From: Ruminococcus flavefaciens
Lineage (GTDB): Bacteria > Bacillota > Clostridia > Oscillospirales > Ruminococcaceae
Direction: 5' to 3'
Assembly (NCBI GenBank): GCA_023663905.1
Contig: JAMPGO010000011.1
Coordinates: forward strand, 1 to 35,427
DNA length: 35,427 nucleotides
The position numbers and the translations under genes were made by a program. A model generated the notes under the pieces. It ran no database searches. It was not told the origin of the DNA and worked only from the letters and a program-made list of their open reading frames with translations. Of the stretch, positions 6,727 through 28,440 are shown piece by piece (the first letter of the stretch is position 1; every line of letters starts with the position of its first letter).

Positions 6727-7114
6727 AGATACTCACGATTTCAGCAGTAAACAGCTTGAGGATTTGTTTTTGTCAGTTGAGTGGTCGTCGGGGCATTACC
6801 CTGATAAACTTGTAACAGCAATGAAGAACTTTGAGACAGTATTTTCCGTATGGGACGGCGATAAGCTTGTCGGAATGATATGTGCTATGGATGACGGAAT
6901 TATGACGGCTTATGTTCATTATCTTCTTGTACATCCTGAATATCAGGGACAGCATATCGGCAGAGAACTTGTCGGAATGGTAAAAGAGAAATATTCTGAT
7001 TATCTGAGAATTGTTGTAGTTGCGTATAATTCAGAACTTACGTTCTATGAAAACTGCGGATTTAAGAAATCAGAAGAGTCAAGTCCGATGTTTATTACAT
7101 CGCTGTGGACTTAG
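6710..7114 (+). CDS. GNAT family N-acetyltransferase
   Basis: 134 residues with the GNAT fold. Motif A, the acetyl-CoA pyrophosphate loop, is HPEYQGQHIGRELVG, preceded by the YVHYLLV beta strand; motif B is the C-terminal YNSELTFYENCGFKKSEES. The start at 6710 has GAGGGAG nine bases upstream; in-frame ATGs at 6701 (no spacing) and 6635 (inside the previous gene) are less likely. The substrate cannot be told from sequence. It lies within the histidine operon, 15 bases before hisI. Confidence 0.85.
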   Translation: MAIIYKDTHDFSSKQLEDLFLSVEWSSGHYPDKLVTAMKNFETVFSVWDGDKLVGMICAMDDGIMTAYVHYLLVHPEYQGQHIGRELVGMVKEKYSDYLRIVVVAYNSELTFYENCGFKKSEESSPMFITSLWT

Positions 7115-13559: not shown

Positions 13560-14804
13560 TTATTTGAATATCAACAGCAGTACCTGCGAGACGATAACTA
13601 TTGAGATGAGGGCAACAGGATAAGTTGCGGCATAAGCGGAAGCAACGTTCTCTGTACCTGCTGTGCCGATGAGAGTACCGAGAGCAGGTGTGGAAGTCAT
13701 ACCGCCTGTGATTGAACCGAGGTTGTTGAGGAGGCTGAGCTTGAGGACGTACTTTGCAAAGAGGAAGCCGACAATCATCGGGATAATTGTCATAACAACA
13801 CCGTAGAGGAAGTAAACAGCCTTGAAGTACTGTACAAAGCTTGCACCGCCTGCGATACCTGCACCGATGAGGAAGAGAACGAGACCGAACTCACGGAAAA
13901 CCTTGAGGGTGTGGTCTTTCGGCATTACAGATATTGCACCGAAGTGGCTGAAATGACCAAAAACGAGTGAAACGAGAAGGCAACCGCCTGTTGTGGTGAG
14001 TGAGAAGTTGCCGAACTTGATTGAGCCGACGAAAATACCGAGGATTGCAGCGAGTGCGAAGGGCATAAATCCAAATTCGTCCATTTCAATGAGCTTGCCT
14101 GTGTATTTTTTCTTTGCAGAGCCTGAATCAGCAGAAACGAGCTTTTCACGCTCAACTTTCATATCAGCCTTCATAAATTTCGGGATGAGCTGTACAAAGA
14201 GTACAACACCGATTACACCGAAGAGGTAAGCGATACCGTGACCGACTGTTACCAAATCCTCAAGCTCCGTACCGTTTCCACGGCTTGCAACAGTAGCCTT
14301 TGCTGCGGAGAATGCAGGTGTACTTGTGAGTGAGCCGGAGAGAAGACCTACGAGCATTGAAGCGCTCTCTTCTCTTGTGCTTTCGGGTGAAACCGCACCG
14401 TCAATGAGAATACATCCACCGCAGGCAAGTCCGCCCGAGATGATAACGACGAGAGCGATGAGTACATAGGATTTGAAATTCTTCTTGAAGTTGCCGAAGA
14501 AGTTAGGACCTGCGATGAATCCGACGGACGTTACGAAGAGTATCAGACCGATATTTTCAACAACTTTGAGTGCGTTTTTGACGTAAGTAGCGTCGCCGAC
14601 CATAAGATTATCGCCGAGATTATCATAGAAGAAACAGCCGTAGAGAAGTGCGACGATGAAAACACCTGCTGTTCCGAGCGAAACACCTTTAATGGTAACT
14701 CTTCCAAGAATGTAGCCTACTGCTGTTACGAGAAAAACAGTAAACACCAAAAAAGTAATCGATGTAATTGAGATGGAGAAGTCTCCGATGTTAATTAAAT
14801 CCAT
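13560..14804 (-). CDS. AspT/YidE-family anion carrier, candidate succinate exporter
   Basis: 414 residues, two repeated membrane domains of the aspartate-alanine antiporter type. The first repeat holds GLLSGSLTSTPAFSAAKA and GHGIAYLFGVIGVVLF; the second holds GSITGGMTSTPALGTLIGT near the C-terminus. The usual cytosolic RCK/TrkA-C domains between the repeats in YidE and YbjL are absent; only a short charged linker (about residues 210-240) remains. Members exchange or export carboxylates such as aspartate and, in other bacteria, succinate. As the last gene after the fumarate reductase genes, succinate export is an attractive role, but that is inference. Start at 14804 with AGGAAAGG upstream. 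Confidence 0.8.
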   Translation of the reverse strand: MDLINIGDFSISITSITFLVFTVFLVTAVGYILGRVTIKGVSLGTAGVFIVALLYGCFFYDNLGDNLMVGDATYVKNALKVVENIGLILFVTSVGFIAGPNFFGNFKKNFKSYVLIALVVIISGGLACGGCILIDGAVSPESTREESASMLVGLLSGSLTSTPAFSAAKATVASRGNGTELEDLVTVGHGIAYLFGVIGVVLFVQLIPKFMKADMKVEREKLVSADSGSAKKKYTGKLIEMDEFGFMPFALAAILGIFVGSIKFGNFSLTTTGGCLLVSLVFGHFSHFGAISVMPKDHTLKVFREFGLVLFLIGAGIAGGASFVQYFKAVYFLYGVVMTIIPMIVGFLFAKYVLKLSLLNNLGSITGGMTSTPALGTLIGTAGTENVASAYAATYPVALISIVIVSQVLLLIFK

Positions 14805-14868
14805 AATTATTTTTACCTTTCCTCAAATTTTTGTACAATTTAGCGAAATGCCTTTTCACACAAATCGA

Positions 14869-14885
14869 CGGACAATGAATGTCCG
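14869..14885 (-). other. small hairpin between flavoprotein and carrier genes
   Basis: CGGACA with TGTCCG around a five-base loop, in the 111-base gap before the carrier gene. There is no T-run, so I do not call it a terminator. It could be an mRNA processing or stability element. I found no convincing promoter in the gap. Confidence 0.35.
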
Positions 14886-14915
14886 CCGAATTTATGTTTA
14901 TTGATTCAACTGAAA

Positions 14916-16520
14916 TTACTTAGCCTTTCTTGCATAGTGCGGAAGAAGCATAGGTGAAACAGTATCGTTGGAAATTCCAGCCTCAGCGAGTTCGCTGTTG
15001 TACTTCTCGATATGCTCAAGAGTAAGCTTTTCGGGAACGTTTGTTTCCTTAGCCTTGGCAGCAGCGCTCTTACCTGCGTCACGACCGAAAACAATAACAT
15101 CGAGGAGCGAGTTGCCCATAAGTCTGTTTCTGCCGTGGATACCTCCTGCAACCTCACCTGCGGCAAAGAGATTCTCAACGTCTGTCGAGCAGTCAACGCT
15201 GATATTAAGACCGCCGTTCTGGTAGTGAAGAGTAGGATAAACGAGGATAGGTTCTTTGCGGATATCAATGCCGTACTTGCCGAACATACGCATCATAGCA
15301 GGGATTCTCTTTTCGATAGTACCCTCGCCGTGGATAAGCTCAATCATAGGAGTATCGAGCCATACAGCCTTGCCGAGATGAGTTTCAATACCCTTGTCTC
15401 TTGCAGTACACTCACGGATGATAGAAGAAGCAGTTACGTCACGTGTTTCGAGCGGATTCATAAATACTTCGCCGTCGATATTAACGAGCTTTGCGCCGAG
15501 CGAACGAACCTTTTCAGTAACGAGTGCGCCGAAAATCTGTTCGGGATAGCCTGTTCCTGTCGGGTGATACTGGAGAGTATCAGCGTAGAGAAGTCTTGCG
15601 CCGACTCTGTAGCCGAGAATAAGACCGTCAGCGGTTGCGCCGTAGTGGTTGGAAGTCGGGAAGCCCTGATAGTGAAGTCTGCCAGCACCGCCTGTAGCGA
15701 TAACAACAGTCTTGGCACGTGCAACCATAAGCTCCTTTGTTTCCATATTCATAAGAACAGCACCGCCTGCCTTGCCGTTTTCGTCAAGGATAATTTCAAC
15801 AGCAGCTGTGAAATCGATTACGGGAATACCACGGTTGAGAACCTCGTCACGGAGAGTACGCATAATTTCAGCGCCTGAATAGTCCTTTGCAGCGTGCATT
15901 CTCTTGCGTGAAGTACCACCGCCGTGAGTTGTAACCATTGTGCCGTCAGCTTCCTTGTCGAACTCAACACCGAGCTTGTTGAGCCACTGAATAGCGGCAG
16001 GAGCTTTTGTAACAAGGTTCTTTACAAGCTCAGGCTTTGCGGCGAAGTGACCACCGCCGAAAGCGTCGATGTAGTGAATAGCAGGGGAATCGTTCGGCTT
16101 GTCAGCTGCCTGAATACCGCCCTCAGCCATCATTGTGTTAGCGTCGCCTATACGGAGCTTTGTAACAATCATAGCCTTTACGCCAGCTTCGTCAGCCTCG
16201 ATTGCAGCGGAAGCACCTGCACCGCCGCCGCCGATAATAAGAACGTCTGTATCATAGTCGGGATTGCTTAAATCAACATCGCCTGCGCTGATACGGCTCT
16301 TGCCCTGTAAAAGCTCAGCAAGCTGTGTGGGAACTTTTTCGCCCTTGTTTACACCTGCGGAAAGAACAGTGAACTGGTCCTGTCTGTAGTCGGGGTGAAA
16401 TTCAGCAAGAAGAGCTTCCTTTTCGTCAGCAGTCATTCTTCTTGGCTCGAGCTTGGCATTATATTCTCTCTTTTCAGCAACAATCTTTGCAAGCTCGTTA
16501 AGCTTATCAATTTTATACAT
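14916..16520 (-). CDS. soluble fumarate reductase/succinate dehydrogenase flavoprotein subunit
   Basis: 534 residues. After an unusual N-terminal extension of about 90 residues comes the FAD Rossmann motif GGGGAG (97-102). All fumarate-site residues can be matched to E. coli FrdA by motif: H319 in QYHPTG, T335-E336, the proton-donor arginine R360 in TRDV, H432 in LHYQNGG, and R466 in HGRNRLMGNS. The histidine that binds FAD covalently in FrdA/SdhA is replaced by N128 in the MAEGG segment, so the FAD is probably non-covalent. The C-terminal helical domain is short. L-aspartate oxidase (NadB) is the nearest confusable family, but pairing with the iron-sulfur gene upstream argues for fumarate reductase. 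Best current names: FrdA-like or TfrA-like. Confidence 0.87.
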   Translation of the reverse strand: MYKIDKLNELAKIVAEKREYNAKLEPRRMTADEKEALLAEFHPDYRQDQFTVLSAGVNKGEKVPTQLAELLQGKSRISAGDVDLSNPDYDTDVLIIGGGGAGASAAIEADEAGVKAMIVTKLRIGDANTMMAEGGIQAADKPNDSPAIHYIDAFGGGHFAAKPELVKNLVTKAPAAIQWLNKLGVEFDKEADGTMVTTHGGGTSRKRMHAAKDYSGAEIMRTLRDEVLNRGIPVIDFTAAVEIILDENGKAGGAVLMNMETKELMVARAKTVVIATGGAGRLHYQGFPTSNHYGATADGLILGYRVGARLLYADTLQYHPTGTGYPEQIFGALVTEKVRSLGAKLVNIDGEVFMNPLETRDVTASSIIRECTARDKGIETHLGKAVWLDTPMIELIHGEGTIEKRIPAMMRMFGKYGIDIRKEPILVYPTLHYQNGGLNISVDCSTDVENLFAAGEVAGGIHGRNRLMGNSLLDVIVFGRDAGKSAAAKAKETNVPEKLTLEHIEKYNSELAEAGISNDTVSPMLLPHYARKAK

Positions 16521-16532
16521 TTCTGCTCCTCC

Positions 16533-17210
16533 TTACTTCTCTATCTCACGTGTATTGTAAAGCTCTTTGATTTCCTCAATGGGCTTCTGCATTAAATCCT
16601 CGATGAGCTTGTCAAAAGTACCCTCGTTAATCTCGTTTACACGGTCAGCAAGATGTCCGCACTCAGGAGCGATATACTTACCGTTGAGACGGCGAGCAAG
16701 CATAGCAACCTGCGGGTGAGAGATTCCTGCGGGACAGCGTGAGGAGCATACTCCGCACATAACGCAGTCGAAGCTTAATTCAGCGCACTTGTCGTATTCG
16801 CCTCTCTGAGCGTGTGCGATATACTGCATAACGTTGAGTTCCTGTGTGCAGGCTTTTGTGCAAGCATTACAGCCGATACAAGCGTAGATTTCAGGATATA
16901 ACTGCATCATAATCTGGTCGTGAGGCTTGATTTCGTTGATGTTGTAAACCTGTTTTACGAGCGGGAAGAAGGGGAGAGTAGCAACGTACATACCTTCCTG
17001 AACTTCTGTCTGGCAGGCGAGACAAGCGTGAAGCTCCTGCTTATCCTTGATTCTGTAGATAGTTGCACACGCACCGCAGAAACCGTTACGGCATCCACAG
17101 CCACGTACAAGCTCATAGCCGGCATATTCCATAGCTGTCATAATTGTAAGACCTGCCGGCACCTGATATTTCTTGCCGAACAGATAAACATTAATCATAT
17201 TATTATCCAT
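16533..17210 (-). CDS. fumarate reductase iron-sulfur subunit with one [2Fe-2S] and two [4Fe-4S] sites
   Basis: 225 residues from the ATG at 17210, which has AAAGGAG nine bases upstream; the longer frame from 17261 would overlap the previous gene and lacks such a site. The N-terminal part is an SdhB/FrdB-like ferredoxin domain with C40, C45, C48 and C63. The C-terminal part has CIGCNACTKAC (111-121) and CVMCGVCSSRCP (149-160), two full [4Fe-4S] patterns rather than the [4Fe-4S] plus [3Fe-4S] of membrane FrdB. This resembles the N-terminal two thirds of archaeal thiol:fumarate reductase TfrB, without its CCG domains. It should pass electrons to the flavoprotein encoded 12 bases downstream. No FrdC/FrdD anchor gene is nearby. 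Confidence 0.87.
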   Translation of the reverse strand: MDNNMINVYLFGKKYQVPAGLTIMTAMEYAGYELVRGCGCRNGFCGACATIYRIKDKQELHACLACQTEVQEGMYVATLPFFPLVKQVYNINEIKPHDQIMMQLYPEIYACIGCNACTKACTQELNVMQYIAHAQRGEYDKCAELSFDCVMCGVCSSRCPAGISHPQVAMLARRLNGKYIAPECGHLADRVNEINEGTFDKLIEDLMQKPIEEIKELYNTREIEK

Positions 17211-17226
17211 TGCTTTTAACTCCTTT

Positions 17227-18054
17227 TTAATATTCGTCCGGAAGTTCGTCGAGCTGGTCAAAACGGAAAACAGGACCGTCCTTGCACACGTACTTGTTGC
17301 CGATGTTACAACGTCCGCATTTTCCGACAGCGCACTTCATACGAAGCTCCATTGTGGTGTAAACCTGAGTTTCAGTAAATCCGAGTTCCTTGAGACCTGC
17401 GAGTGTGAATTTAATCATAATCGGAGGACCGCAGATGAGGACGGTTTTGCTGAGCGAGGGATTAAGCTCCTTGACATAGTTGGGAACGAATCCGACGTGA
17501 CCGTCCCAGCCCTCCTGCTCTCTGTCTATTGTGAGATTTACTTCAATGCCGTCGTCGTTCATCCACTCGTCGATGATTTCCTTATAGTCAACGAGGTCGT
17601 CCTTTGAGCGTGAGCCGTAGACAATCTGAACGTCGCCGTAATTTGCACGGTTGTCACGCACATAGTTGATTACTGAACGGAGCGGAGCAAGACCGATACC
17701 GCCTGCGATGAAGAGCAAATCCTTGCCCTTGAGTTCGGTTTCAACAGGGAAGTGGTTGCCGTAAGGTCCTCTTATGGTAATCTGCTGACCGACCTCCATA
17801 GCGTGAAGCCAGGAAGTGAGACAACCGCACTTTTTAATGCTGAACTCCATAAATTCCTTGTTTGTGGGAGAAGATGTGATAGAGAACATACCTTCGCCGA
17901 CACCCGGGACTGAAAGCATTGCACACTGTCCGGGCATATGCTCAAAAACTTTTCCGCCCTCAAGTGCGTTCACCCTGAATGTCTTGACATCGGGAGTATC
18001 CTGTCTTATATCGGTTATAATGCCGACAAGCGGAATTAATGTATCATTATTCAT
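17227..18054 (-). CDS. flxA: FlxA-like NAD(P)H-oxidising flavoprotein
   Basis: 275 residues of the ferredoxin-NADP reductase/PyrK type. The FAD motif is MFSITSSP (56-63), the NAD(P) site FIAGGIGLAPLRS (115-127) with CGPP at 208-211, and a C-terminal [2Fe-2S] site with C241, C246, C249 and C257. Homologues are FlxA of the Flx-Hdr complexes, the gamma subunit of sulfhydrogenases and AsrB. In such complexes this subunit takes electrons from NADH (or NADPH) and feeds the iron-sulfur subunits. Its start overlaps the stop of the preceding gene by one base (TAATG), consistent with a stoichiometric complex. The symbol is by homology and operon context. Confidence 0.85.
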   Translation of the reverse strand: MNNDTLIPLVGIITDIRQDTPDVKTFRVNALEGGKVFEHMPGQCAMLSVPGVGEGMFSITSSPTNKEFMEFSIKKCGCLTSWLHAMEVGQQITIRGPYGNHFPVETELKGKDLLFIAGGIGLAPLRSVINYVRDNRANYGDVQIVYGSRSKDDLVDYKEIIDEWMNDDGIEVNLTIDREQEGWDGHVGFVPNYVKELNPSLSKTVLICGPPIMIKFTLAGLKELGFTETQVYTTMELRMKCAVGKCGRCNIGNKYVCKDGPVFRFDQLDELPDEY

Positions 18055-19073
18055 TACTTAACCTCCAATGCTTTCATTACCTTGACGATATTCATAGAAA
18101 TCGGGCATTTGGACATACAGCGTCCACAGCCGACACAGCCGAACTCGCCGTTGTTGTTTGCAGGGAAGTATACAAGCTTGTGCATAAATCTCTGGCGGAA
18201 TCTCTCAAGCTGTGAGTTTCTGGAGTTGCCGTGCGCCATTTTCGTGAAGTCGGAATACATACAGGAATCCCAGCACCTGAAACGCTTGATTCCGTTTCCT
18301 GTATCGAAATCACGGATGTCGTAGCATTGGCAGGTCGGGCATACGAAAGTACACGTGCCACAGCCGAGACAGGCTTCTGAAAGCTCAGCCCATTTCTCGG
18401 AGCTGAAATGCTCCATAAGCTTTTCACCGCCGAATGAATCCGTTGAAAGATTTGCAAGCGGGAGCTTCTTCATAATATTTCTTGTATTTTCCTGAACCTC
18501 TTCAAGCTTAGCAGTATCGCCCTCTTCAAGCATATCAGCGATAGAATCGATAAATGCCTGACCCTTTTCGTTGTTTGCCTTGAAGAAATAGTTTTCGCCG
18601 TCGGGATATACAGCAACATCGCCCTCAGGAGCAGTCGGGTCGATACCGAAAGTTCCGCAGAAGCAGGTTTCGGCAGGACGTGTGCAAGCCATTGTTACAA
18701 CCGTACCGTGTTCACGGCGGTTTTTATAATAGCTGTCAACAGGCTCGGCAAGAAAAACCTTGTCAAGAATCGTAAAGCTTCTTGCATCGCACGCACGAAC
18801 GCCGAAAATTACGAAATCCTCGGATTCCTCACGGATGTCAATAACTTCAATCTTCTTGCCCTCCATTTTGAAATCAGCAAGATTTTCAGTCTGCGGAAAG
18901 AAGAAATCCTTTGCACTGCGGACTGTGTTGAGTCCCTTGCTCATCTCCATACCGCTTTCGTACTTCTTGTACTCAGCAGAACCGGGTTCACGGTCAACGG
19001 GAATATAGAGAGACTGTTTGGCTGAAACTGCGTCAAATAAACTGTTCAGCTTGTCAGCAGAAATTTTAAGCAT
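18054..19073 (-). CDS. flxB: FlxB-like iron-sulfur subunit
   Basis: 339 residues, soluble, of the family containing the beta subunit of sulfhydrogenase and AsrA. Two C-terminal cluster motifs are visible: C235, C238, C241, C245 with extra C248 and C250, and C313, C316, C319, C323. An N-terminal domain has further conserved-looking cysteines (C95 in VRACDARS; C130, C137, C139). The expected role is electron transfer between FlxA and FlxC/FlxD. FlxB versus FlxC is assigned only from position next to flxA. The gene overlaps both neighbours by one base. Confidence 0.8.
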   Translation of the reverse strand: MLKISADKLNSLFDAVSAKQSLYIPVDREPGSAEYKKYESGMEMSKGLNTVRSAKDFFFPQTENLADFKMEGKKIEVIDIREESEDFVIFGVRACDARSFTILDKVFLAEPVDSYYKNRREHGTVVTMACTRPAETCFCGTFGIDPTAPEGDVAVYPDGENYFFKANNEKGQAFIDSIADMLEEGDTAKLEEVQENTRNIMKKLPLANLSTDSFGGEKLMEHFSSEKWAELSEACLGCGTCTFVCPTCQCYDIRDFDTGNGIKRFRCWDSCMYSDFTKMAHGNSRNSQLERFRQRFMHKLVYFPANNNGEFGCVGCGRCMSKCPISMNIVKVMKALEVK

Positions 19074-20044
19074 TATTCAACACCCCTTTCGTGTACGACA
19101 GAAGGCTCACAGTCGTTGGTGTCATAAGTATTGAGCGGAGCTCTCGATGTTGTATCAGCTCCAGCCTGATATTCGCCGTAAAGGGAATTAATATCCTTGA
19201 TAAACTTCCTGTTGAGGAGGTGAAGCGGGATATTCTGAGGACATACTCTTGAGCATTCACCGCAGTCTGTACATCTTCCTGCAACGTGGAAAGCACGGAT
19301 AATGTGGAACATATTTTCCTCGAAGCTGTCAGCGGCAGCCTTGTTTGAAACACCTGAATTAGGATTATCGAACACGCAGTTCTCGCAGGTGCAGGCAGGG
19401 CATACGTTTCTGCACGCATTACATCTGATACACTTTGAGAGTTCGCCTCTCCAGAAATCATAGCGCTCCTGAGCCGTCATATTTTCGAGCTTCTCAACCA
19501 TATCGAAACGGTTGGATTCAAGAACCTCGCCGTCCTCGCCGATAAGCTCATCGTAAGCAACGTGCTTCTTGCTCTTGCAGTCGGCGCATTTTCCGCTGAT
19601 TGCCTCATAGAAAGGCATAGTTTCCTCGCCGTAGAGAGTTTCAATTTTAAGGGTGAAGTCCTCGTTCTTTACGCTGAGGATACCTGTAATGCCCTTAGCC
19701 TTGATTTTTTCGATGTCAAGCTTAGGACCGCCCGGAATGCCGATTACGTAAACGTTGTCACGGTTGATTCTGTGTTCTTTCACAAGCTGATTGAAACTGT
19801 AAGTATCGCAGGGCTTGAGAAATGCGAGGATTTTACCCTCTTTCTTTGATTCCTTTACAAGATATTTTGAGACGTTAGCCTGTGTGAAATCATCGAAAAC
19901 GAAATCCGAATCGATTTCCTCCGCTGTTTCAAAAACAGCAGGAGTAATATCGTAAACAAATTCGCCTCTTTTCCAGCCGATTACACGGTTTACAGTGCCG
20001 TCTGCGAGCAGTTCCTTTGCTCTCTTGATTATTGCTTCCTGCAT
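19073..20044 (-). CDS. flxC: FlxC-like iron-sulfur subunit
   Basis: 323 residues. It has the same layout as the gene after it: an N-terminal domain with a CD motif (C79 in LKPCDTYS), a CXXC pair (C153, C156), then CIRCNACRNVCPACTC (205-220) plus C223, and CTDCGECSRVCP (258-269). This makes it a probable paralogue of the FlxB-like subunit and related to F420-hydrogenase beta/AsrA-type proteins. The expected role is wiring within the Flx-Hdr complex. It overlaps flxD by 16 bases and flxB by one base. Confidence 0.8.
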   Translation of the reverse strand: MQEAIIKRAKELLADGTVNRVIGWKRGEFVYDITPAVFETAEEIDSDFVFDDFTQANVSKYLVKESKKEGKILAFLKPCDTYSFNQLVKEHRINRDNVYVIGIPGGPKLDIEKIKAKGITGILSVKNEDFTLKIETLYGEETMPFYEAISGKCADCKSKKHVAYDELIGEDGEVLESNRFDMVEKLENMTAQERYDFWRGELSKCIRCNACRNVCPACTCENCVFDNPNSGVSNKAAADSFEENMFHIIRAFHVAGRCTDCGECSRVCPQNIPLHLLNRKFIKDINSLYGEYQAGADTTSRAPLNTYDTNDCEPSVVHERGVE

Positions 20045-20469
20045 CGTAAATCCTCCAATCTTCTGTTAGGACCTAATTTCTTTACATCGTCAACAAACTG
20101 GTTCATAGTTGCCGCAAATTTTGCACCTTCAGCGGCTGAAACCCATTCGAGACGTGTTCTGTTGCGTTCAATTCCGAGGAAATCGAGCATACTGTAGAGA
20201 AGAGTGATTCTTCTTCTTGTGAAGTAATTTCCCGATGTATAGTGACAGTCGCCCGGGTGACATCCGCAGATGATTACGCCGTCAGCGCCCTTCTGGAACG
20301 CTCTGAGAATAAACATAGGATTAACTCTGCACGAGCAGGGAACTCTGATTATCTTAACATTTGAGGGATAATTGAGTCTGTTAGTGCCTGATAAGTCTGC
20401 ACCTGCATATGAACACCAGTTACAGCAGAATGCGACTATTACAGGCTCAAAGTTTTCATTTACTTGCAT
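20029..20469 (-). CDS. flxD: FlxD/MvhD-like electron-transfer subunit
   Basis: 146 residues, a clear MvhD domain: CCNWCSYAGAD (15-25), RVPCSCRVNP (42-51), and ICGCHPGDCHY (67-77). MvhD carries a [2Fe-2S] cluster and is the docking adaptor that delivers electrons to HdrA in methanogens; FlxD does the same in bacterial Flx-Hdr complexes. The RVPCSC segment has a cysteine (C47) where many homologues have glycine. It overlaps hdrA by 10 bases, matching a direct contact partner. Confidence 0.9.
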   Translation of the reverse strand: MQVNENFEPVIVAFCCNWCSYAGADLSGTNRLNYPSNVKIIRVPCSCRVNPMFILRAFQKGADGVIICGCHPGDCHYTSGNYFTRRRITLLYSMLDFLGIERNRTRLEWVSAAEGAKFAATMNQFVDDVKKLGPNRRLEDLRCRKQ

Positions 20470-22466
20470 ATTGCGTCTACCTCCGCCATAATCTGACTAT
20501 TTGAGAATCCGTTCAAATCCATTGCGCCTGACGGACAAGCTACCGTACAAGCACCGCAACCCTGACATACAGCAGGATTAACGCTTGCAACTCTGCGGAT
20601 AGCAGTGGTTCTGTCGGGCATTCTGAACTCTTTATCCTGATAAGTGATAGCACCGTAAGGACAAACTTTTTCGCAGGCTGAACAGCCGTTGCACATAAGC
20701 TCGTTTGAGTGAGCAACGCACGGGTTGCAGGTGATACTGTTCTTGCATAGAAGTCCGATAGCCTTAGCAGCTGCCGCACTTGCCTGAGCTACAGTTTCGG
20801 GAATATCCTTAGGACCTTGACAAGCACCTGAAAGGAAGATACCTGCTGTTGCCGATTCAACAGGACGGAGCTTCGGGTGAGCTTCTGTGAAGAAGTCGTT
20901 TGTATCCATCTGTGTTGTAAGCATTGTAGCGAGCGGACGAGCTGTCTTGTCAGGCTCGATAGCTGCTGCGAGTACAACCATATCGGCATTTATATGAAGC
21001 TGTTCGTTGGAGATAAGGTCGGAAGCCTGAACGTCAATCTGTCCATCAGCCTTCGGAGTAACCTTGCCGACCATACCCTTTATATAATGTACGTTGTACT
21101 GCTCAACGGCACGGCGGTAGAACTCGTCAAAGTTCTTTCCGGGAGTACGCACGTCTATGTAGAATACGTAAACCTCTGTATCAGGGTACTTCTCACGGAT
21201 AAGCATTGCGTGCTTTGCTGTGTACATACAGCAGATTTTTGAGCAGTAAGGCTTTCCCTTTTCATCGTCGCAACGTGAACCTACGCACTGTACGAATACG
21301 ATTGTATGCGGGTGGGTCTTATCGGACGGACGGAGAAGCGTACCGCCGTTAGGTCCTGCGGCATTCATAAGTCTTTCAAGCTCAAGTGAGGTTACAACGT
21401 CGGGGCAGTAGCTGTAAGCAAATTCATCGTACTTGTCAAGATTAATCGGGTTGAATCCTGTTGCAACTACGATTGCGCCGTACTTCTGCTCAATAAATTC
21501 GTCCTGCTGGTGATAGTTGATAGCACCTGCCGAGCAAGCCTGCGAACATTTACCGCACACCTTGTCATTTACATCGCCCTTGCGGAGTTTAAGACAGTAT
21601 GTGGAATCGATTGTGGCAACCTTCGGTACAGCCTGTGCGAACGGAATGTAGATAGCGCCTCTGTTGTTGAGTCCGAGGTTGAACTCGTTCGGCACTTTCT
21701 GCATAGGACATACTTCCGTACAAGCACCACAGCCTGTACACTTTGTTGCGTCAACAAAACGTCTCTTTTTCTTGATAGTAGCCGTGAAGTTGCCGACAAA
21801 TCCCTTTACATCGCTTACTTCGCTGTATGCGTGGATAGTGATTTTCTCGTTCTGTGAAGCCTCAACCATTTTAGGAGTGAGGATACAGGCGGCACAGTCA
21901 AGAGTCGGGAATGTCTTATCAATCTGCGCCATTTTTCCGCCGATTGTCGGATTCTTTTCAACGATGTCAACTTCAAATCCTGCTTCGGCAATATCAAGAG
22001 CAGTCTGAATACCTGCAATACCACCGCCGATTACAAGCGCACGCTTAACGACAGGGCTTTCACCTGCTGTGAGCGGTGTATTGAGATGAACCTTTGCGAC
22101 AGCGGCTCTGCCGAGGATTATAGCCTTTTCAGTAGCTGAGGCAATGTCCTTGTGAATCCACGAACACTGCTCACGGATATTTGCGATTTCAACAAGATAT
22201 GGATTAAGACCGACTGAAGCAGCCGCTTTTCTGAATGTATTTTCGTGCATTCTCGGTGAGCAGGAGCAAACAACAACTCCTGTGAGATTATGCTCCTTGA
22301 TAGCATTTTTAACTAAATCCTGTCCCGATTCCGAACACATATACTGGTAATCCTGTGAGATTACAACACCCGGCTCGTGACCAAGAGCTTCAGCAACAGC
22401 CTTGACGTCAACCGTAGCGGCGATATTAGTACCGCAGTGGCAGACAAAAACACCTATTCTCTGCAT
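20460..22466 (-). CDS. hdrA: HdrA, electron-bifurcating heterodisulfide reductase flavoprotein
   Basis: 668 residues, full length. The N-terminal domain has CHCG (9-12) and CSCSPRMHE (67-75); the FAD Rossmann motif GGGIAG is at 147-152; an inserted ferredoxin domain carries CTGCGACTEVCP (243-254) and C304, C307, C311; the C-terminus has two more [4Fe-4S] motifs at 592-602 and 634-644. In methanogens and in Flx-Hdr systems the HdrA flavin splits electron pairs between a high-potential acceptor through HdrBC and ferredoxin. Upstream neighbours are hdrB and hdrC, downstream flxD. No DsrC-like or CoM/CoB-related gene is in the window. Confidence 0.93.
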   Translation of the reverse strand: MQRIGVFVCHCGTNIAATVDVKAVAEALGHEPGVVISQDYQYMCSESGQDLVKNAIKEHNLTGVVVCSCSPRMHENTFRKAAASVGLNPYLVEIANIREQCSWIHKDIASATEKAIILGRAAVAKVHLNTPLTAGESPVVKRALVIGGGIAGIQTALDIAEAGFEVDIVEKNPTIGGKMAQIDKTFPTLDCAACILTPKMVEASQNEKITIHAYSEVSDVKGFVGNFTATIKKKRRFVDATKCTGCGACTEVCPMQKVPNEFNLGLNNRGAIYIPFAQAVPKVATIDSTYCLKLRKGDVNDKVCGKCSQACSAGAINYHQQDEFIEQKYGAIVVATGFNPINLDKYDEFAYSYCPDVVTSLELERLMNAAGPNGGTLLRPSDKTHPHTIVFVQCVGSRCDDEKGKPYCSKICCMYTAKHAMLIREKYPDTEVYVFYIDVRTPGKNFDEFYRRAVEQYNVHYIKGMVGKVTPKADGQIDVQASDLISNEQLHINADMVVLAAAIEPDKTARPLATMLTTQMDTNDFFTEAHPKLRPVESATAGIFLSGACQGPKDIPETVAQASAAAAKAIGLLCKNSITCNPCVAHSNELMCNGCSACEKVCPYGAITYQDKEFRMPDRTTAIRRVASVNPAVCQGCGACTVACPSGAMDLNGFSNSQIMAEVDAICK

Positions 22467-22478
22467 AAAAGCTCCTCC

Positions 22479-22862
22479 TTACTTGGTATATTTTCTGAAT
22501 GCTGTAACAATAGCCTGCTGTGGCAAATCTTCATCGAGCATTTCAGGAATCTGGTCGGGAATGAGATGATTGTTTCCCTGTTTTCTTATTGCAGCGAGAC
22601 GTACTGCTTCAACGACTTTAGCCGGCTCAACGCCACGGGGACATCTTTCCACGCAGGCAAAGCAGGTGAGGCACTTGTAAAGCGACTCGGAGTTGAGCAG
22701 AGGTTCAATATTTCCCTTTTCGACCATATATACAAACTGGTGCGGGTGATATTCCATCTCAGCATAGGACGGACAAGTTGCAGAGCATTTTCCGCATCTC
22801 ATACACTTGAGAACGTTAACACCGCTTGTAATGTCAATCCATTCCTTCTGATTTTTATTCAT
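22479..22862 (-). CDS. hdrC: HdrC, heterodisulfide reductase iron-sulfur subunit
   Basis: 127 residues, with two [4Fe-4S] motifs: CMRCGKCSATCP (20-31) and CLTCFACVERCPRG (64-77), as in archaeal and bacterial HdrC. It links HdrA to HdrB. It overlaps hdrB by eight bases and precedes hdrA by 12 bases. It is shorter than some HdrC proteins but contains the whole ferredoxin core. Confidence 0.93.
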   Translation of the reverse strand: MNKNQKEWIDITSGVNVLKCMRCGKCSATCPSYAEMEYHPHQFVYMVEKGNIEPLLNSESLYKCLTCFACVERCPRGVEPAKVVEAVRLAAIRKQGNNHLIPDQIPEMLDEDLPQQAIVTAFRKYTK

Positions 22863-23649
22863 TTGTTTCCTCCTTTAAGCCGAGAGCTTCGGCAAGAAGT
22901 TCTGTAAAGTAATAAACAGGCATTTCAGAACCTGAGTTCTTTTTGAGGTTATAAAGGCAGAGCGGACAGGCTGTTATAATCATATCAGCACCCATACTCT
23001 GTGCGGAATCTATAACGGCACTGCTTCTCTTCTGAGCCTGCGCCTTGTCCTCCATTGTGATATATCCGCCGCAGCACTCGTTTCTCTGGGCATATATTAC
23101 GGGAGTTCCGCCGATAGCCTTGATGAAATCCTCCATAATTGTAGGATTTTCGGGATTGTCCATAGCGAGAGCCTTGGACGGACGGAGCAGGAGACAGCCG
23201 TAATAAGCGGCGATTTTCTTGCCCTTGAAAGGCTTTACAACCTTAGCCTTGAGATTGTCAAAGCCAACAACGTCACGGAGAAGTTCAAGGTAGTGGTAAA
23301 CAGTCGTCTCGCCTGTATAAGCTTCATCGAGACCGAGATACTGCTTGACCTTGTTCTGCATAGATTCGTTTCTGGAAATATCGTAGTTTGTCTGCTTTAT
23401 TACATTGTGACAGGCAGAGCAGACCGTAACAAGACCCTCAGATTCCGTGGCAGACATAAGCGTTCTTACTGCTGAAAGCTTTGTGGCAACTTCATTTGTT
23501 GCAGTTGTATAAGCTCCGCCGCAGCACTGCCAGTTCTCGGGTTCAACAAGAGCGATACCCAGAGCTTCGGCGGAAGAACGTGCATAAGCGTCTAAGTCTT
23601 TTGCCTTGGTTCTCAGGGTACAGCCGGGATAATATGTGAAAGTTTGCAT
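22855..23649 (-). CDS. hdrB: HdrB, heterodisulfide reductase catalytic subunit with two complete CCG motifs
   Basis: 264 residues, two CCG domains (PF02754). The first cysteine set is C10, C42-C43, C77 and C80; the second is C152, C192-C193, C228 and C231. Both match the spacing that binds the non-cubane [4Fe-4S] clusters in methanogen HdrB, so the disulfide-type active site looks intact. The natural acceptor in this organism is unknown. The operon places it first in the Hdr-Flx set, 23 bases after fumC and in the same operon as fumarate reductase subunits that lack such domains. Confidence 0.92.
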   Translation of the reverse strand: MQTFTYYPGCTLRTKAKDLDAYARSSAEALGIALVEPENWQCCGGAYTTATNEVATKLSAVRTLMSATESEGLVTVCSACHNVIKQTNYDISRNESMQNKVKQYLGLDEAYTGETTVYHYLELLRDVVGFDNLKAKVVKPFKGKKIAAYYGCLLLRPSKALAMDNPENPTIMEDFIKAIGGTPVIYAQRNECCGGYITMEDKAQAQKRSSAVIDSAQSMGADMIITACPLCLYNLKKNSGSEMPVYYFTELLAEALGLKEETNE

Positions 23650-23672: not shown

Positions 23673-25049
23673 TTAAACCATCTGTTCGGGGCGGAATACC
23701 TCGTCAAATTTTTCTGCTGTCAGGAATCCGAGTTCAACACAAGCTTCTTTAAGCGAAATATTGTCCTTGAATGCCTTCTTAGCAGTCTTTGCAGCATTCT
23801 CATAGCCGATATACGGGTTGAGAGCTGTAACAAGCATAAGTGAGTTATGAAGATTATGGTGCATTTTTTCCTTGTTTGCCTTGATTCCGACAGCGCAGTT
23901 CTTGTTGAATGAAATGATTGATTCAGCAAGAAGTCTTGCGGACTGCAAGAAATTGTATGCGCAGACAGGCATAAACACGTTAAGCTCGAAATTGCCCTGT
24001 GAAGCAGCCATACCAACGGCAACGTCATTTCCCATAACCTGTACGGCAACCATAGTAGCCTGCTCGCACTGTGTGGGATTAACCTTTCCGGGCATAATTG
24101 AAGAGCCGGGTTCGTTTTCGGGAATGAATATTTCGCCGAGACCGTCACGAGGACCTGAAGCAAGCCATCTTACGTCGTTTGCAATCTTCATCATATCAGC
24201 TGCGAGCGCCTTTAATGCACCGTGAGCGAACACGATTTCGTCCTTTGATGTGAGCGAATGGAATTTATTGGGAGCAGTTACAAAGTTCTTGCCAGTGAGT
24301 GTGCTGATAGCTTCGGCAGCCTTTTCAGCAAATCCCGCAGGAGCGTTCAGACCTGTTCCTACAGCAGTACCGCCGAGTGCGAGTTCCTTGAGTTCTTCGC
24401 AGGCAGTAAGAATCATTTTCTTATCTTTTTCAAGAGAAGCTCTCCAACCGCTTATTTCCTGTGAGAATTTGATAGGAGTAGCGTCCTGCAAGTGTGTACG
24501 TCCGCTTTTTACAATGCCCTCGTTCTCTTCTTCGAGTCTCTTGAATGTATCAATGAGAACGTCAACGGCAGGGATAACCTTATCCTCAAGAGCGATAACG
24601 GCAGCGATGTGCATAGCAGTCGGAAATGTATCATTTGAGGACTGGCTCATATTAATATCATCGTTCGGATGAAGAAGCTTTGAGCCTGCAATTTCATTTC
24701 CTCTGTTTGCGATAACCTCGTTAGCGTTCATATTGGACTGCGTACCGCTTCCGGTCTGCCATACGACAAGCGGGAAGTGGTCGTTCAATGAACCGCTGAT
24801 GACCTCGTCGCAAGCCTGAGAGATTGCGGAGAGCTTTTCATCAGTCATTCTTTCGGGCTTAACTGCGTGGTTTGCGATAGCAGCAGCCTTTTTAAGAATA
24901 CCGAATGCGTGAGTAATCTCACGGGGCATAGTTTCGATTCCTACACCGATAAGGAAATTCTCGTGGCTTCTCTCGGTCTGAGCAGCCCAGTACTTATCGG
25001 CAGGAACTTTAACTTCGCCCATAGAGTCGTGTTCAATACGATAATCCAT
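23673..25049 (-). CDS. fumC: class II fumarate hydratase
   Basis: Interconverts malate and fumarate without an iron-sulfur cluster. 458 residues, normal for FumC. The fumarase/aspartase signature GSSIMPGKVNPTQCE is near 315-329, with the catalytic serine at 316/317, and H186 lies in GRTHLQDATPIK. Other aspartase/fumarase family members are possible, but the fumarase reading fits VVWQTGSGTQSNMN near 95-108 and the neighbours. It lies 15 bases after the malate dehydrogenase gene and 23 before hdrB, so it supplies the fumarate for the reductase in the same transcript. Confidence 0.93.
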   Translation of the reverse strand: MDYRIEHDSMGEVKVPADKYWAAQTERSHENFLIGVGIETMPREITHAFGILKKAAAIANHAVKPERMTDEKLSAISQACDEVISGSLNDHFPLVVWQTGSGTQSNMNANEVIANRGNEIAGSKLLHPNDDINMSQSSNDTFPTAMHIAAVIALEDKVIPAVDVLIDTFKRLEEENEGIVKSGRTHLQDATPIKFSQEISGWRASLEKDKKMILTACEELKELALGGTAVGTGLNAPAGFAEKAAEAISTLTGKNFVTAPNKFHSLTSKDEIVFAHGALKALAADMMKIANDVRWLASGPRDGLGEIFIPENEPGSSIMPGKVNPTQCEQATMVAVQVMGNDVAVGMAASQGNFELNVFMPVCAYNFLQSARLLAESIISFNKNCAVGIKANKEKMHHNLHNSLMLVTALNPYIGYENAAKTAKKAFKDNISLKEACVELGFLTAEKFDEVFRPEQMV

Positions 25050-25064
25050 TTAATTACCACCTTT

Positions 25065-26009
25065 TCATATATCAAGATTTCTGATTACTTCCTTAAGAGT
25101 TTCAGCACTCTTGTGAAGCTTTGCAATTTCATTGTCAGTGAGAGGAGTGAGGAGCTTTGAAGTTGCGCCGTCCTTGCCGACAATATTAAGAACACTGAGA
25201 CAAACATCACTTACGCCATATTCGCCGTGCATCATAGTGGAAACAGTCATAGTTGTATCGATTCCTTTGAGCAGGCATTTGCATATATGGCATACGGAAG
25301 CTGAAACAGCATAGAAAGTTGCGCCCTTCTGCTCGATTACTCTCGCACCTGATTTGCGCACATACTGTTCCACTTCATCATAATCAAATTCCGGTAAATC
25401 GGGATTGCAGTTAGTCATAAGACTCTTGCATTCGTTTACGGGAACGTTTGAAATATTAGAAAGCGACCAGGGAATAAATGATGAGTCGCCGTGTTCACCC
25501 ATAACATAAGCGTGTACATTGGTCTGGTTGATGTTGAAATATTCTGCAAGTCTAGCTCTGAGACGGGCAGTATCGAGGATAGTACCCGAGCCGATGATGT
25601 GGCTTTCGGGAATATCCGAACATTTGCAGAAAGTATATGTAAGAACGTCAACAGGATTGCTGACAACAATATATTTAGCGTCCGGAGCATATTTTGTGAT
25701 TTCCGGGATGATAGCCTTTGTGATATTGACATTGGTCTGTGCAAGTTCAAGTCTTGTCTGTCCGGGCTTTCTTGCGATACCTGAAGTAATGATTACGATG
25801 TCGGAATCCTTAGCGTCAGAATAGTCGCCCGCATAGATTGAACAGGGACTGAAAAGCGGAACACCCTGACGAATATCGAGAGCCTCGCCGAGAGCCTTTT
25901 CCTTGTTGATGTCAATCATAACAATATCGGAAGCAAGTCCCATTGCCGTAAGGGTATATGCAATGGTAGAGCCTACGCTTCCCGTGCCGATAATAGAAAT
26001 TTTGTTCAT
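25065..26009 (-). CDS. mdh: LDH-family NAD-dependent dehydrogenase, predicted malate dehydrogenase
   Basis: 314 residues. NAD-binding GTGSVGS is at 8-14, the catalytic aspartate/arginine pair at D146 and R149, catalytic H173 in GEHGDSS. The overall sequence looks like L-lactate dehydrogenase (SGTILDTARLR). However, the residue that sets substrate choice, Gln102 in LDH and Arg102 in MDH, is R80 here (IARKPGQTR), with R86 as the substrate-loop arginine. The threonine common in LDH near position 246 is kept (KGATFYA). A single Gln-to-Arg change at 102 is known to turn a Bacillus LDH into a malate dehydrogenase, and fumC follows directly, so I predict oxaloacetate reduction to malate. Lactate dehydrogenase is the alternative. 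Confidence 0.82.
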   Translation of the reverse strand: MNKISIIGTGSVGSTIAYTLTAMGLASDIVMIDINKEKALGEALDIRQGVPLFSPCSIYAGDYSDAKDSDIVIITSGIARKPGQTRLELAQTNVNITKAIIPEITKYAPDAKYIVVSNPVDVLTYTFCKCSDIPESHIIGSGTILDTARLRARLAEYFNINQTNVHAYVMGEHGDSSFIPWSLSNISNVPVNECKSLMTNCNPDLPEFDYDEVEQYVRKSGARVIEQKGATFYAVSASVCHICKCLLKGIDTTMTVSTMMHGEYGVSDVCLSVLNIVGKDGATSKLLTPLTDNEIAKLHKSAETLKEVIRNLDI

Positions 26010-26045: not shown

Positions 26046-26074
26046 ATTATATCATATAATTGATATTTTGTCAA
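26046..26074 (-). promoter_or_regulatory. consensus promoter of the mdh-fumC-hdr-flx-frd operon
   Basis: On the minus strand TTGACA (26069-26074), a 17-base spacer, and TATAAT (26046-26051), about 37 bases before the mdh start. This is a perfect match to the SigA consensus. Confidence 0.85.
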
Positions 26075-26151: not shown

Positions 26152-26784
26152 TCACTTGTTTGATTTAAGCCCGTACGAAAGAGTAGTCAGGCTGTCGCCG
26201 AGATGAACGTTTTCGACAGCTATTCCCTTGTGATTGACACGGAGGTCATAGTGGGTGAAGTTCCAGAAGGCGCTTATACCGAGGTTTATGAGCCTGTCCG
26301 TCTCCTTCACGGCAACGTCGCTGGGAATGCAGAGAATTGCCGCAACGGGTTTGTGTTCATTGCAGAATTTTTCAAGCTCTGCAATGTCAGATACCGTTAT
26401 ATCGCCGATTTCCCTGCCAATCAGTTCGGGATTTGCATCAAAAATTCCCACAAGCTCAAATCCCTTGCTCTGAAAATCGATATGTGATGCAATTGCCCTG
26501 CCGAGGTTTCCAGCACCCAGAAGAATCATAGGCGTTATGCTGTCAAGTCCCAGAATCCTGCCTATTTCAGCCCTCAGACCCTTGACGTTATAGCCATAGC
26601 CCTGCTGACCGAATTCGCCGAAGCAGTTGAAATCCTGTCGTACCTGCGAGGCGGTAAGTCCCATTCTTTCGGCAAGTTCTCTTGATGAGATACGTACACA
26701 GCCATCTGATTCAAGCTCTCCGAGAAAACGATAGTATCTCGGAAGTCGTCTTATGACGGAATTTGAGATTGCGTTTTTTGACAT
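26152..26784 (-). CDS. rex: redox-sensing transcriptional repressor Rex
   Basis: 210 residues, normal length. The N-terminal winged helix is visible as RISSRELAERMGLTASQVRQ (31-50) followed by the conserved DFNCFGEFGQQGYGY, and the Rossmann NAD(H)-binding domain has LLGAGNLGRAI (88-98). The domain-swapped C-terminal helix is present. Rex binds operators when NAD+ is high and leaves DNA when NADH rises. It begins 22 bases after the icd stop, so it should be co-transcribed with aconitase and isocitrate dehydrogenase, and it lies just before the fermentation operon it may control. Confidence 0.95.
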   Translation of the reverse strand: MSKNAISNSVIRRLPRYYRFLGELESDGCVRISSRELAERMGLTASQVRQDFNCFGEFGQQGYGYNVKGLRAEIGRILGLDSITPMILLGAGNLGRAIASHIDFQSKGFELVGIFDANPELIGREIGDITVSDIAELEKFCNEHKPVAAILCIPSDVAVKETDRLINLGISAFWNFTHYDLRVNHKGIAVENVHLGDSLTTLSYGLKSNK

Positions 26785-26806: not shown

Positions 26807-28018
26807 TTACATAAGCTTGTCAAGATTGATTTTGATTTCCTCGAGGAATGTCTTTGAATCAACCTTTCTCTTGTTTTCAAGTTTGGAGATAAGATAGAGG
26901 TCGCCTGTCATTATGCCGTTCTCGATTGTCTGAATTGTAGCCTTTTCAAGCTTGTCGGCGAAATCGCAGAGTTCGGGTGTGTTGTCAAGTTCGCCTCTCT
27001 TGCGCAATGCACCGCTCCACGCAAAGATAGTTGCAACGGAGTTTGTGGATGTCTCCTCGCCCTTGAGGTACTTGTAATAGTGGCGCTGTACTGTACCGTG
27101 TGCAGCCTCGTACTCGTAGATACCGTCGGGTGAAACAAGGACGGAAGTCATCATAGCAAGCGAACCGTAAGCAGTTGAAACCATATCGGACATAACATCG
27201 CCGTCGTAGTTCTTGCAAGCCCAGATATAACCGCCGTTTGAACGTATAACACGTGCAACTGCGTCGTCGATAAGCGTATAGAAGTATTCGATTCCTGCTT
27301 CCTCGTACTTCTCCTTGTACTCGTTCTCGTAGATTTCAGCGAAAATGTCCTTAAATCTGTGGTCGTACTTCTTGGAGATAGTATCCTTTGTTGCGAACCA
27401 TACATCCTGCTTGAGGTCGAGACCGTAGTTGAGACAAGCTCTTGCGAAGCCTGCGATTGAGTCATCGAGATTGTGAAGTCCCTGAATGATACCGTCGGAC
27501 TTTTTGAAATCGTGGATAAGCTCACGTGTTTCGTTGCCGTTTTCGTCGGTAACAACGAGTTCAGCCTTACAGCCCTTTTCAACACGCATTTCAGTGTTCT
27601 TGTATACATCGCCGTAAGCGTGACGTGCGATAGTGATAGGCTTTGTCCAGGTCGGAATATACGGCTCAATGCCTTTCACGATAATAGGAGTTCTGAAAAC
27701 TGTACCGTCAAGGGCAGCTCTGATAGTTCCGTTGGGAGATTTCCACATCTGTGTGAGGTTGTATTCGGGCATACGTGCAGCATTGGGAGTGATAGTAGCG
27801 CACTTTACTGCAACGCCGTATTTCTTTGTAGCCTCTGCGGAATCAAGAGTAACCTGGTCTTTTGTTTCCTCACGATGCTGAAGTCCGAGGTCATAATACT
27901 CAGTATTCAGCTCCACATAGGGAACAAGAAGTATGTCCTTAATCCACTGCCAGAGGATTCTTGTCATCTCATCGCCGTCCATTTCGACGAGCGGTGTTTT
28001 CATAATAATTTTTGCCAT
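26807..28018 (-). CDS. icd: NADP-dependent isocitrate dehydrogenase (eukaryotic-like type)
   Basis: 403 residues, the homodimeric type related to human IDH1 rather than to E. coli Icd. Evidence includes [10 protein letters not shown] near 12-21, KSPNGTIR near 93-100 and the DNYDGDV-like metal region ([10 protein letters not shown]). The cofactor discriminators R312 and H313 in HGTVQRHYY indicate NADP+. It converts isocitrate to 2-oxoglutarate, giving NADPH and the carbon skeleton for glutamate. GGAGG precedes the start. Located between two small membrane proteins and rex, downstream of aconitase. Confidence 0.95.
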
Positions 28019-28065: not shown

Positions 28066-28440
28066 TTATCTGTTGCCCGACATAAGCATTGCAAGTGCAG
28101 TTATCAGGCAGAAGAACGAAACTATAATAATATTTCTGATGACTGCCGATTTCAGGTTCATTCCGCCGAATATCGTGTGCTGTAGCGTTCCGACTGCGAC
28201 CGCAAAGACCGCACCCGATATAAGGTAGGGAGCGATACCCGAAAAGCCGAACAGTCTCGCAAATGCAAGTCCCACGACAAATCCGGCTAAGTTAGGCAGA
28301 AGGATTTTTAAAAATCCTCCGCCCTGTCTGGGTTGCCTTGCGCCCATATCCTTTGCCGAACGGTTTATGCGTTCCTGCTCAATATCAGCGTCAGCTATAA
28401 TATCGTGAGTAATCTCCTTGATGTCGTCCCATAATCCCAT
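28066..28440 (-). CDS. small membrane protein of unknown function
   Basis: 124 residues. A charged, helical N-terminus (1-40) with NRSAKDMGARQPRQGGG is followed by three likely membrane segments (about 45-64, 68-88, 100-120). I do not recognise a family. The start has AGGTG eight bases upstream and lies nine bases after the stop of another tiny membrane protein. It is on the aconitase-icd-rex transcript, 47 bases before icd. Confidence 0.75.
   Translation of the reverse strand: MGLWDDIKEITHDIIADADIEQERINRSAKDMGARQPRQGGGFLKILLPNLAGFVVGLAFARLFGFSGIAPYLISGAVFAVAVGTLQHTIFGGMNLKSAVIRNIIIVSFFCLITALAMLMSGNR

Follow-up and report, generated by a model that had tools for sequence, protein, structure and literature searches.

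A candidate soluble, electron-bifurcating NADH:ferredoxin/fumarate oxidoreductase in a succinate operon of a Ruminococcus flavefaciens-type gut bacterium

Closest described systems

We analysed a 35,427-nucleotide stretch of Ruminococcus flavefaciens DNA (contig JAMPGO010000011.1; the whole stretch is called the window below), in which nine consecutive minus-strand genes encode FlxABCD-, HdrABC- and fumarate reductase (FrdAB)-type subunits. The closest described counterpart is the 'succinate operon' of Pseudoclostridium thermosuccinogenes, which comprises fumarase, Flx-Hdr, Frd and a putative succinate transporter and for which a link between fumarate reduction and ferredoxin was proposed in 2020 (PMC7282089), with a 2019 preprint by Koendjbiharie and van Kranenburg cited for the succinate operon idea. 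Compared by gene content with the legend text of that paper, the window likewise holds fumarase, Flx-Hdr, Frd and a putative transporter, whereas the malate dehydrogenase (MDH)-type gene that leads the window operon is not named in the legend. The idea of a fumarate-coupled Flx-Hdr, which a sequence-only reading of the window had put forward, is therefore not new, as it had already appeared in print, together with the same operon, for P. thermosuccinogenes. The 2020 paper also reports that in this organism the succinate operon was about fourfold up under CO2 limitation and that 85% H2 nearly abolished succinate.

Other relatives are set in different contexts. In tubeworm symbionts and Thioflavicoccus mobilis, flxABCD-hdrABC genes are interspersed with tfrAB and a complex was suggested (PMC6315080), which resembles the window, but these genes sit in a reverse tricarboxylic acid (TCA) cluster with korABCD and the fumarate reductase is named TfrAB. 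FlxABCD-HdrABC of Desulfovibrio vulgaris shares its seven subunits, and its role as an NADH dehydrogenase/heterodisulfide reductase, with the window but is tied to ethanol metabolism in the title of Ramos 2015, and a 2014 paper on Desulfovibrio alaskensis connects Hdr-Flox with the reduction of fumarate in its title. Of methanogen TfrAB, TfrA is the best NCBIfam model for the window FrdA and TfrB unites FrdB-, HdrC- and HdrB-like parts, with scores below curated cut-offs, whereas the window HdrB is a separate subunit. SdhE of the 8-methylmenaquinol:fumarate reductase SdhABE, a membrane-associated and quinol-linked enzyme, provides a precedent for transfer from an HdrB-like protein to FrdB. The acceptor of the D. 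vulgaris complex is probably a disulfide.

The window is a further example of this known, biochemically unproven kind. No title or abstract matched this system in Ruminococcus in the literature searched, which excludes preprints and most subscription journals; a review states that succinate or propionate output of R. flavefaciens falls in methanogen co-culture (PMC7174568). Two points appear new, although the 2019 preprint could contain part of them: the view of FrdAB as a portable module that has more than one partner, and an Frd-exclusive HdrB subfamily.

Proposed reaction and its subunits

We propose, with a probability of about 0.68, that the operon encodes an oxaloacetate-to-succinate reductive branch whose last step would be carried out by a soluble electron-bifurcating NADH:ferredoxin/fumarate oxidoreductase. 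The proposal is built on the gene set and order, the cofactor and active-site residues, co-inheritance and the finding of no alternative in the assembly, from which we infer the electron path, the coupling to ferredoxin and a direct HdrB-FrdB transfer instead of a dithiol carrier. Electrons would pass from NADH to the FlxA flavin, the FlxB and FlxC clusters, the FlxD [2Fe-2S] cluster and the HdrA FAD, where the pair would split. One electron would reach ferredoxin (Fd) through the inserted ferredoxin domain of HdrA, and the other would travel via HdrC, the non-cubane clusters of HdrB and FrdB to the FrdA FAD and fumarate. The net reaction would be 2 NADH + fumarate + Fd(ox) -> 2 NAD+ + succinate + Fd(red), and Fd(red) could then power Rnf or a hydrogenase. 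With the potentials assumed here, the coupled reaction is exergonic, at -49 kJ/mol for -320 mV (NADH) and -420 mV (ferredoxin) and at -18 kJ/mol for -280 and -500 mV.

The nine minus-strand open reading frames (ORFs) fill positions 14916-23649 in the order hdrB-hdrC-hdrA-flxD-flxC-flxB-flxA-frdB-frdA, neighbours overlapping by 1-16 bases or standing 12-16 bases apart. All of these ORFs were confirmed where the sequence-only reading had placed them, and its family calls (HdrB, HdrC, HdrA, an MvhD/FlxD adaptor, FlxB/C, FlxA, FrdB and FrdA) agree with the domain matches. The predicted NAD(P)H-oxidising FAD/NAD-binding flavoprotein is encoded by flxA (17227-18054; PF00175, PF10418 and PF00970, AsrB/HydG-like below cut-off), an AsrA/HydB-like iron-sulfur protein by flxB (18054-19073; PF17179, with ShyB at 5.7e-53 and AsrA at 1e-41, both below cut-off), another iron-sulfur protein by flxC (19073-20044; general 4Fe-4S dicluster matches only) and the MvhD/FlpD adaptor by flxD (20029-20469; PF02662, 6.3e-55). 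The flavin subunit HdrA (20460-22466) carries iron-sulfur ligands and matched 5odc_A over residues 3-665 (1e-204) and the HdrA2 model at 5.1e-241, below that model's cut-off. HdrC (22479-22862) is a short form of 127 aa with a 2x[4Fe-4S] dicluster, the eight cysteines of which were invariant in 79/79 rows. HdrB (22855-23649; PF02754), a member of the frd-type subfamily described below, has two CCG motifs with all ten CCG cysteines conserved, its best NCBIfam match being SdhE (4.4e-42, below cut-off), and was the only CCG protein found in the window's assembly. The locus hence combines what marks FlxABCD-HdrABC systems, namely an HdrA with inserted and C-terminal iron-sulfur ligands, an HdrB with two CCG motifs, an HdrC with 2x[4Fe-4S] and FlxA-D together.

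In HdrA, the 16 ferredoxin-domain cysteine ligands were invariant in 86/86 rows, and all eight cysteines of the inserted ferredoxin domain were kept in the same number. This conservation bears on a simpler explanation, a linear soluble NADH:fumarate reductase running from Flx through HdrA and HdrBC to FrdAB with no reduction of ferredoxin. Fumarate is a good enough acceptor for such an uncoupled chain, but the retained cysteines and the presence of Rnf, a user of reduced ferredoxin that was matched in 34 of 40 genus genomes and in the window's assembly, make it quite improbable. We searched those 40 Ruminococcus genomes for Rnf, UbiA, SdhB-type proteins, DsrC and NiFe hydrogenase. Neither DsrC nor NiFe hydrogenase was matched in any of the 40 or in the window's assembly, UbiA was above cut-off in six (12 at E 0.001) and SdhB-type Fer2_3 in three (10 at E 0.001), and the window's assembly (2.2 Mb, 82% complete) had no match to SdhB-type proteins or UbiA. 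Absences in an 82% complete assembly are weak alone, and the genus counts support them; the earlier remark that a quinone-linked anchor and DsrC are missing is supported.

FrdB (16533-17210) carries one [2Fe-2S] and two [4Fe-4S] clusters and lacks a CCG domain, and its 12 cluster cysteines were invariant in 150/150 rows. An ATG start at 17210 fits the homologues, whereas the listed ORF began at an upstream TTG at 17261; each PDB match of FrdB covers one domain only. The third cluster of quinone-linked SdhB has three cysteines, whereas the last cluster of the window FrdB has a fourth, which was present in 150/150 rows.

FrdA (14916-16520) is a predicted fumarate reductase flavoprotein that matched PF00890 (FAD_binding_2, 1.5e-70) and not PF02910. 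Aligned to an SdhA structure, it has the FAD_binding_2 fold and the substrate residues, the active-site residues H319, E336, R339, H432 and R466 being invariant in 156/156 rows, while asparagine takes the place of the covalent-FAD histidine in 155/156. An N-terminal extension of about 88 residues contains an HPD motif that was invariant in 22 sequences; these first ~88 residues were unmatched among the best 60 PDB sequences listed, where the best stretches begin at residue 74 or later. The asparagine, the missing PF02910 and Fer2_3 matches, the fourth cysteine and the lack of an anchor gene among the operon genes set the pair apart from membrane quinol:fumarate reductases. Although the best NCBIfam model for FrdA was TfrA (below its curated cut-off), FrdB lacks the CCG match that marks the TfrB chain and matched only the first part of TfrB. 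L-aspartate oxidase was also considered for FrdA and rejected because a separate, 32%-identical homologue in the assembly lies outside the FrdA clade. The fumarate role that had been assigned to FrdAB is supported by the five invariant residues and by C4-acid neighbours, and it is from these neighbours that fumarate-reducing activity itself is deduced.

Conservation of the gene cluster

The window comes from a gut bacterium of the Ruminococcus flavefaciens type, and its nearest named relatives belong to Ruminococcus, including R. flavefaciens FD-1 (FrdA 89% identical; L084). A survey for the nine-gene order, suggested by the sequence-only reading, found it kept in 65/65 named loci whose sequence extends over 7.9 kb upstream of frdA (tblastn), with fumC directly upstream of hdrB in 62 of them; cultured FD-1 shares this order. 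These loci belong to a set of 80 named ones, the best 80 of at least 587 relatives; being the best matches of the scan, the 80 are biased to the window's kin, so that they describe its wider group and not the FrdA family. Among 24 genomes of the window's taxonomic order, all five FrdA carriers (G045, G046, G051, G056 and G059) had the full cluster.

In a sample of 398 genomes from the phylum, this FrdA was detected in 38 (E below 1e-20, next match 4.2e-15), and their surroundings were classed by gene sizes and models, with Pfam applied to examples only. A full Flx-Hdr set stood beside frdBA in five genomes, and in 11 the neighbours were HdrA, flxD, a FlxC-like protein and large flavin fusions of an HdrA/GltD-like type, the complete ones measuring 1053-1489 aa. 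Very large multi-flavin iron-sulfur fusions of this HdrA/GltD-like type lie near flxD and frdBA at L052:13855-17151 and L068:13922-18391 and offer another candidate, of different build, for coupling fumarate reduction. Five further genomes had only other HdrBs (31-39% identity), and five had no HdrB match, of which G188 has HdrA.

An HdrB subfamily that follows FrdA

The window HdrB was searched against the same 398 genomes with a cut at E below 1e-60 (next match 1.6e-56). All 25 genomes with the best matches, from eight families, fell within the 38 FrdA genomes (hypergeometric 1.8e-30, a value that ignores kinship), even though hdrB lies away from frdA in 6 of the 25; G149, with an HdrB at 1.9e-54, is a seventh such genome. 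In a first HdrB tree of 41 rows, a 100/100 branch split 28 from 13 with one frd-linked HdrB (L068 of G338) on the wrong side, an exception resolved by a second HdrB beside the same G338 cluster that falls on the frd-type side. This second protein (L180, ORF at 6997) has 402 aa with ~110 extra N-terminal residues, and the other-type HdrB sits closer to frdBA than it does. In the 52-row tree, 32 rows formed one side (100/100), consisting of the 25 HdrBs, one each from G149 and G338 and the five from the window's order, while the other 20 comprised ten from genomes without FrdA and ten other copies from FrdA genomes. The G149 (L167) and G338 rows have long branches, so their placement is less sure, and only other-type HdrB was found in G092, G098, G133, G138 and G437. 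Overall, frd-type HdrB occurred in 27 of the 38 FrdA genomes and was not seen without FrdA. The two types differ at positions 11, 49, 76, 83, 119, 173, 196 and 238, among others; H49, P76 and R238 were invariant in the 13 other-type HdrBs and unconserved in the 28 of frd type.

The one-chain TfrB model was matched in succession by FrdB, HdrC and HdrB (model positions 19-94, 125-220 and 264-351), and this join and the SdhE match (below cut-off) are both precedents for an HdrB-like domain feeding FrdB. We tentatively suggest, as a possibility short of even odds, that the HdrB-HdrC subfamily is a dedicated docking relay for FrdAB in which the two non-cubane clusters, which reduce disulfides in other systems, only pass electrons on to FrdB, and that FrdAB is a portable fumarate-reducing module which evolution has coupled to several inputs, namely Flx-HdrABC, the large fusions of HdrA/GltD-like type, HdrBC by itself and donors without Hdr.

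Evidence for and against coupling

Several observations weigh against coupled bifurcation to fumarate. In P. thermosuccinogenes (PMC7282089), the rise of the operon did not reach significance for all subunits, Na2S, used to lower the redox potential, acted opposite to H2, and the acceptors of Flx-Hdr were named as ferredoxin 'and thiols'. The ORFs of the examined loci included no FrdB-HdrB fusion, and both CCG motifs are retained in HdrB, as expected of one that reduces disulfides. Of the 38 genomes with FrdA, five (class B) have only hdrC-hdrB beside frdBA and seven carry an hdrBCA-flxDCB(A) cluster elsewhere, apart from frd (one cut by a contig end). Four others (G129, G353, G435 and G126) have no HdrA or HdrB match, which argues against obligate coupling. 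Elsewhere frdBA stands beside a NapC-type cytochrome (L048 and L055) or FMN-binding/Fe-S proteins (L048 and L059).

The intact CCG motifs suit an alternative in which Flx-HdrABC would bifurcate to a dithiol/disulfide carrier. The thiol would then supply electrons for reducing fumarate through HdrB, either by itself or in complex with FrdAB, much as happens in methanogen Tfr. TfrB holds the same parts in one chain, and the class B order hdrC-hdrB-frdB-frdA, with no hdrA nearby, is the layout of a split Tfr. We nevertheless regard a carrier as unlikely, given that FrdB itself has no CCG domain, that no second CCG protein was found in the assembly and no DsrC in the 40 genus genomes searched, and that frd-type HdrBs have not conserved the histidine, proline and arginine fixed in the other type.

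The genomes in which frd lacks Hdr, or is unlinked from it, raise another explanation, that FrdAB takes a different donor and Flx-Hdr serves a different reaction, the genes being merely co-regulated. This is very improbable, as frd adjoins hdr in several gene orders and the HdrB subfamily is confined to FrdA genomes across more than eight families. Where Hdr is absent, the neighbours of frdBA include pyruvate carboxylase (L076), malic enzyme with class I fumarase (L043) and malate/lactate dehydrogenase (L067); the link to C4 acids therefore recurs while the donor varies. Since FrdAB occurs without HdrA and HdrB or beside cytochrome, FMN-binding and Fe-S genes, it can probably take electrons from non-Hdr sources. 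In the FrdA tree, Hdr-free genomes of family f89 group with the window's clade (100/100), and the partner must therefore have been lost, gained or exchanged there. The pyruvate carboxylase gene of L076 lies directly upstream of frdBA in G435, one of the genomes with no HdrA or HdrB match, and L073 and L074 (G129 and G353) are alike by equal length (1144 aa). G149 has two FrdA copies of this clade (L059 and L071), one with no adjoining frdB.

On balance, composition and co-inheritance favour a path in which ferredoxin is the low-potential acceptor and electrons leave HdrA for FrdB-FrdA by way of HdrC-HdrB. Of the coupling originally suggested, a ferredoxin branch would fit the kept HdrA ligands and a partnership would fit an HdrB subfamily that tracks FrdA even when unlinked, whereas the four FrdA genomes without HdrA or HdrB matches speak against obligate coupling.

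Extent of the operon and its neighbours

The transcription unit, as read from the sequence, is longer than the nine genes first recognised and runs mdh-fumC-hdrBCA-flxDCBA-frdBA between a promoter-like site and a terminator-like hairpin; these four elements had been missed. The operon, its flanking promoter-like site and hairpin, the transporter gene and rex are all on the minus strand. The class II fumarase gene fumC (23673-25049; TIGR00979, 706 bits, cut-off 665) lies 23 bases before hdrB and 15 bases after a dehydrogenase gene of the LDH/MDH family (25065-26009). The product of the latter matched NCBIfam L-lactate dehydrogenase above cut-off, but KPG is preceded by Arg in the window protein and in 34 of 44 homologues (those with a readable motif; 10 unread), and we take Arg here to mark malate and Gln lactate. 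Because of this residue, lactate dehydrogenase was set aside; the protein is likely a malate dehydrogenase misnamed in annotations. With mdh and fumC heading the same unit as flx-hdr-frd, the branch from oxaloacetate via malate and fumarate to succinate therefore appears to be encoded by one operon.

Upstream of mdh, the promoter-like site TTGACA-17-TATAAT (26046-26074), with TG before the second hexamer, has 12/12 consensus matches; sigma-70-type sites show no excess in the region overall (12 found, 17.0 expected). The hairpin after frdA (14865-14889) has 10 pairs, 6 of them G-C, and a T-rich tail, in a region with 20 such hairpins against 12.4 expected. Located 3' of the operon, a gene for an AspT/YidE-family transporter (13560-14804; PF06826), a candidate C4-dicarboxylate exporter, has homologues in 53 of the 80 named loci.

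The redox-sensing repressor gene rex (26152-26784; NCBIfam Rex above cut-off) adjoins the promoter-like site upstream. Rex control through a consensus operator was considered and rejected: a scan of the window gave five weak matches (2.43 expected), with none upstream of mdh and no consensus site near the operon. Farther upstream on the same strand, genes for NADP-isocitrate dehydrogenase and aconitase (26807-28018 and 28633-30570) bring the oxidative arm of a split TCA pathway next to the reductive one, and an ORF of 124 aa between them (28066-28440) had no Pfam or NCBIfam match.

Implications

Through the Frd-exclusive HdrB subfamily, such systems can be looked for by sequence even where their genes are scattered. 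Bacteria of the Ruminococcus flavefaciens type are fibre degraders that make succinate. If the proposed reaction is true, it would explain how they produce succinate without quinones or a membrane enzyme, would alter the ATP balance calculated for succinate formation in rumen and gut, and would extend to fumarate the list of known high-potential acceptors that drive the reduction of ferredoxin.

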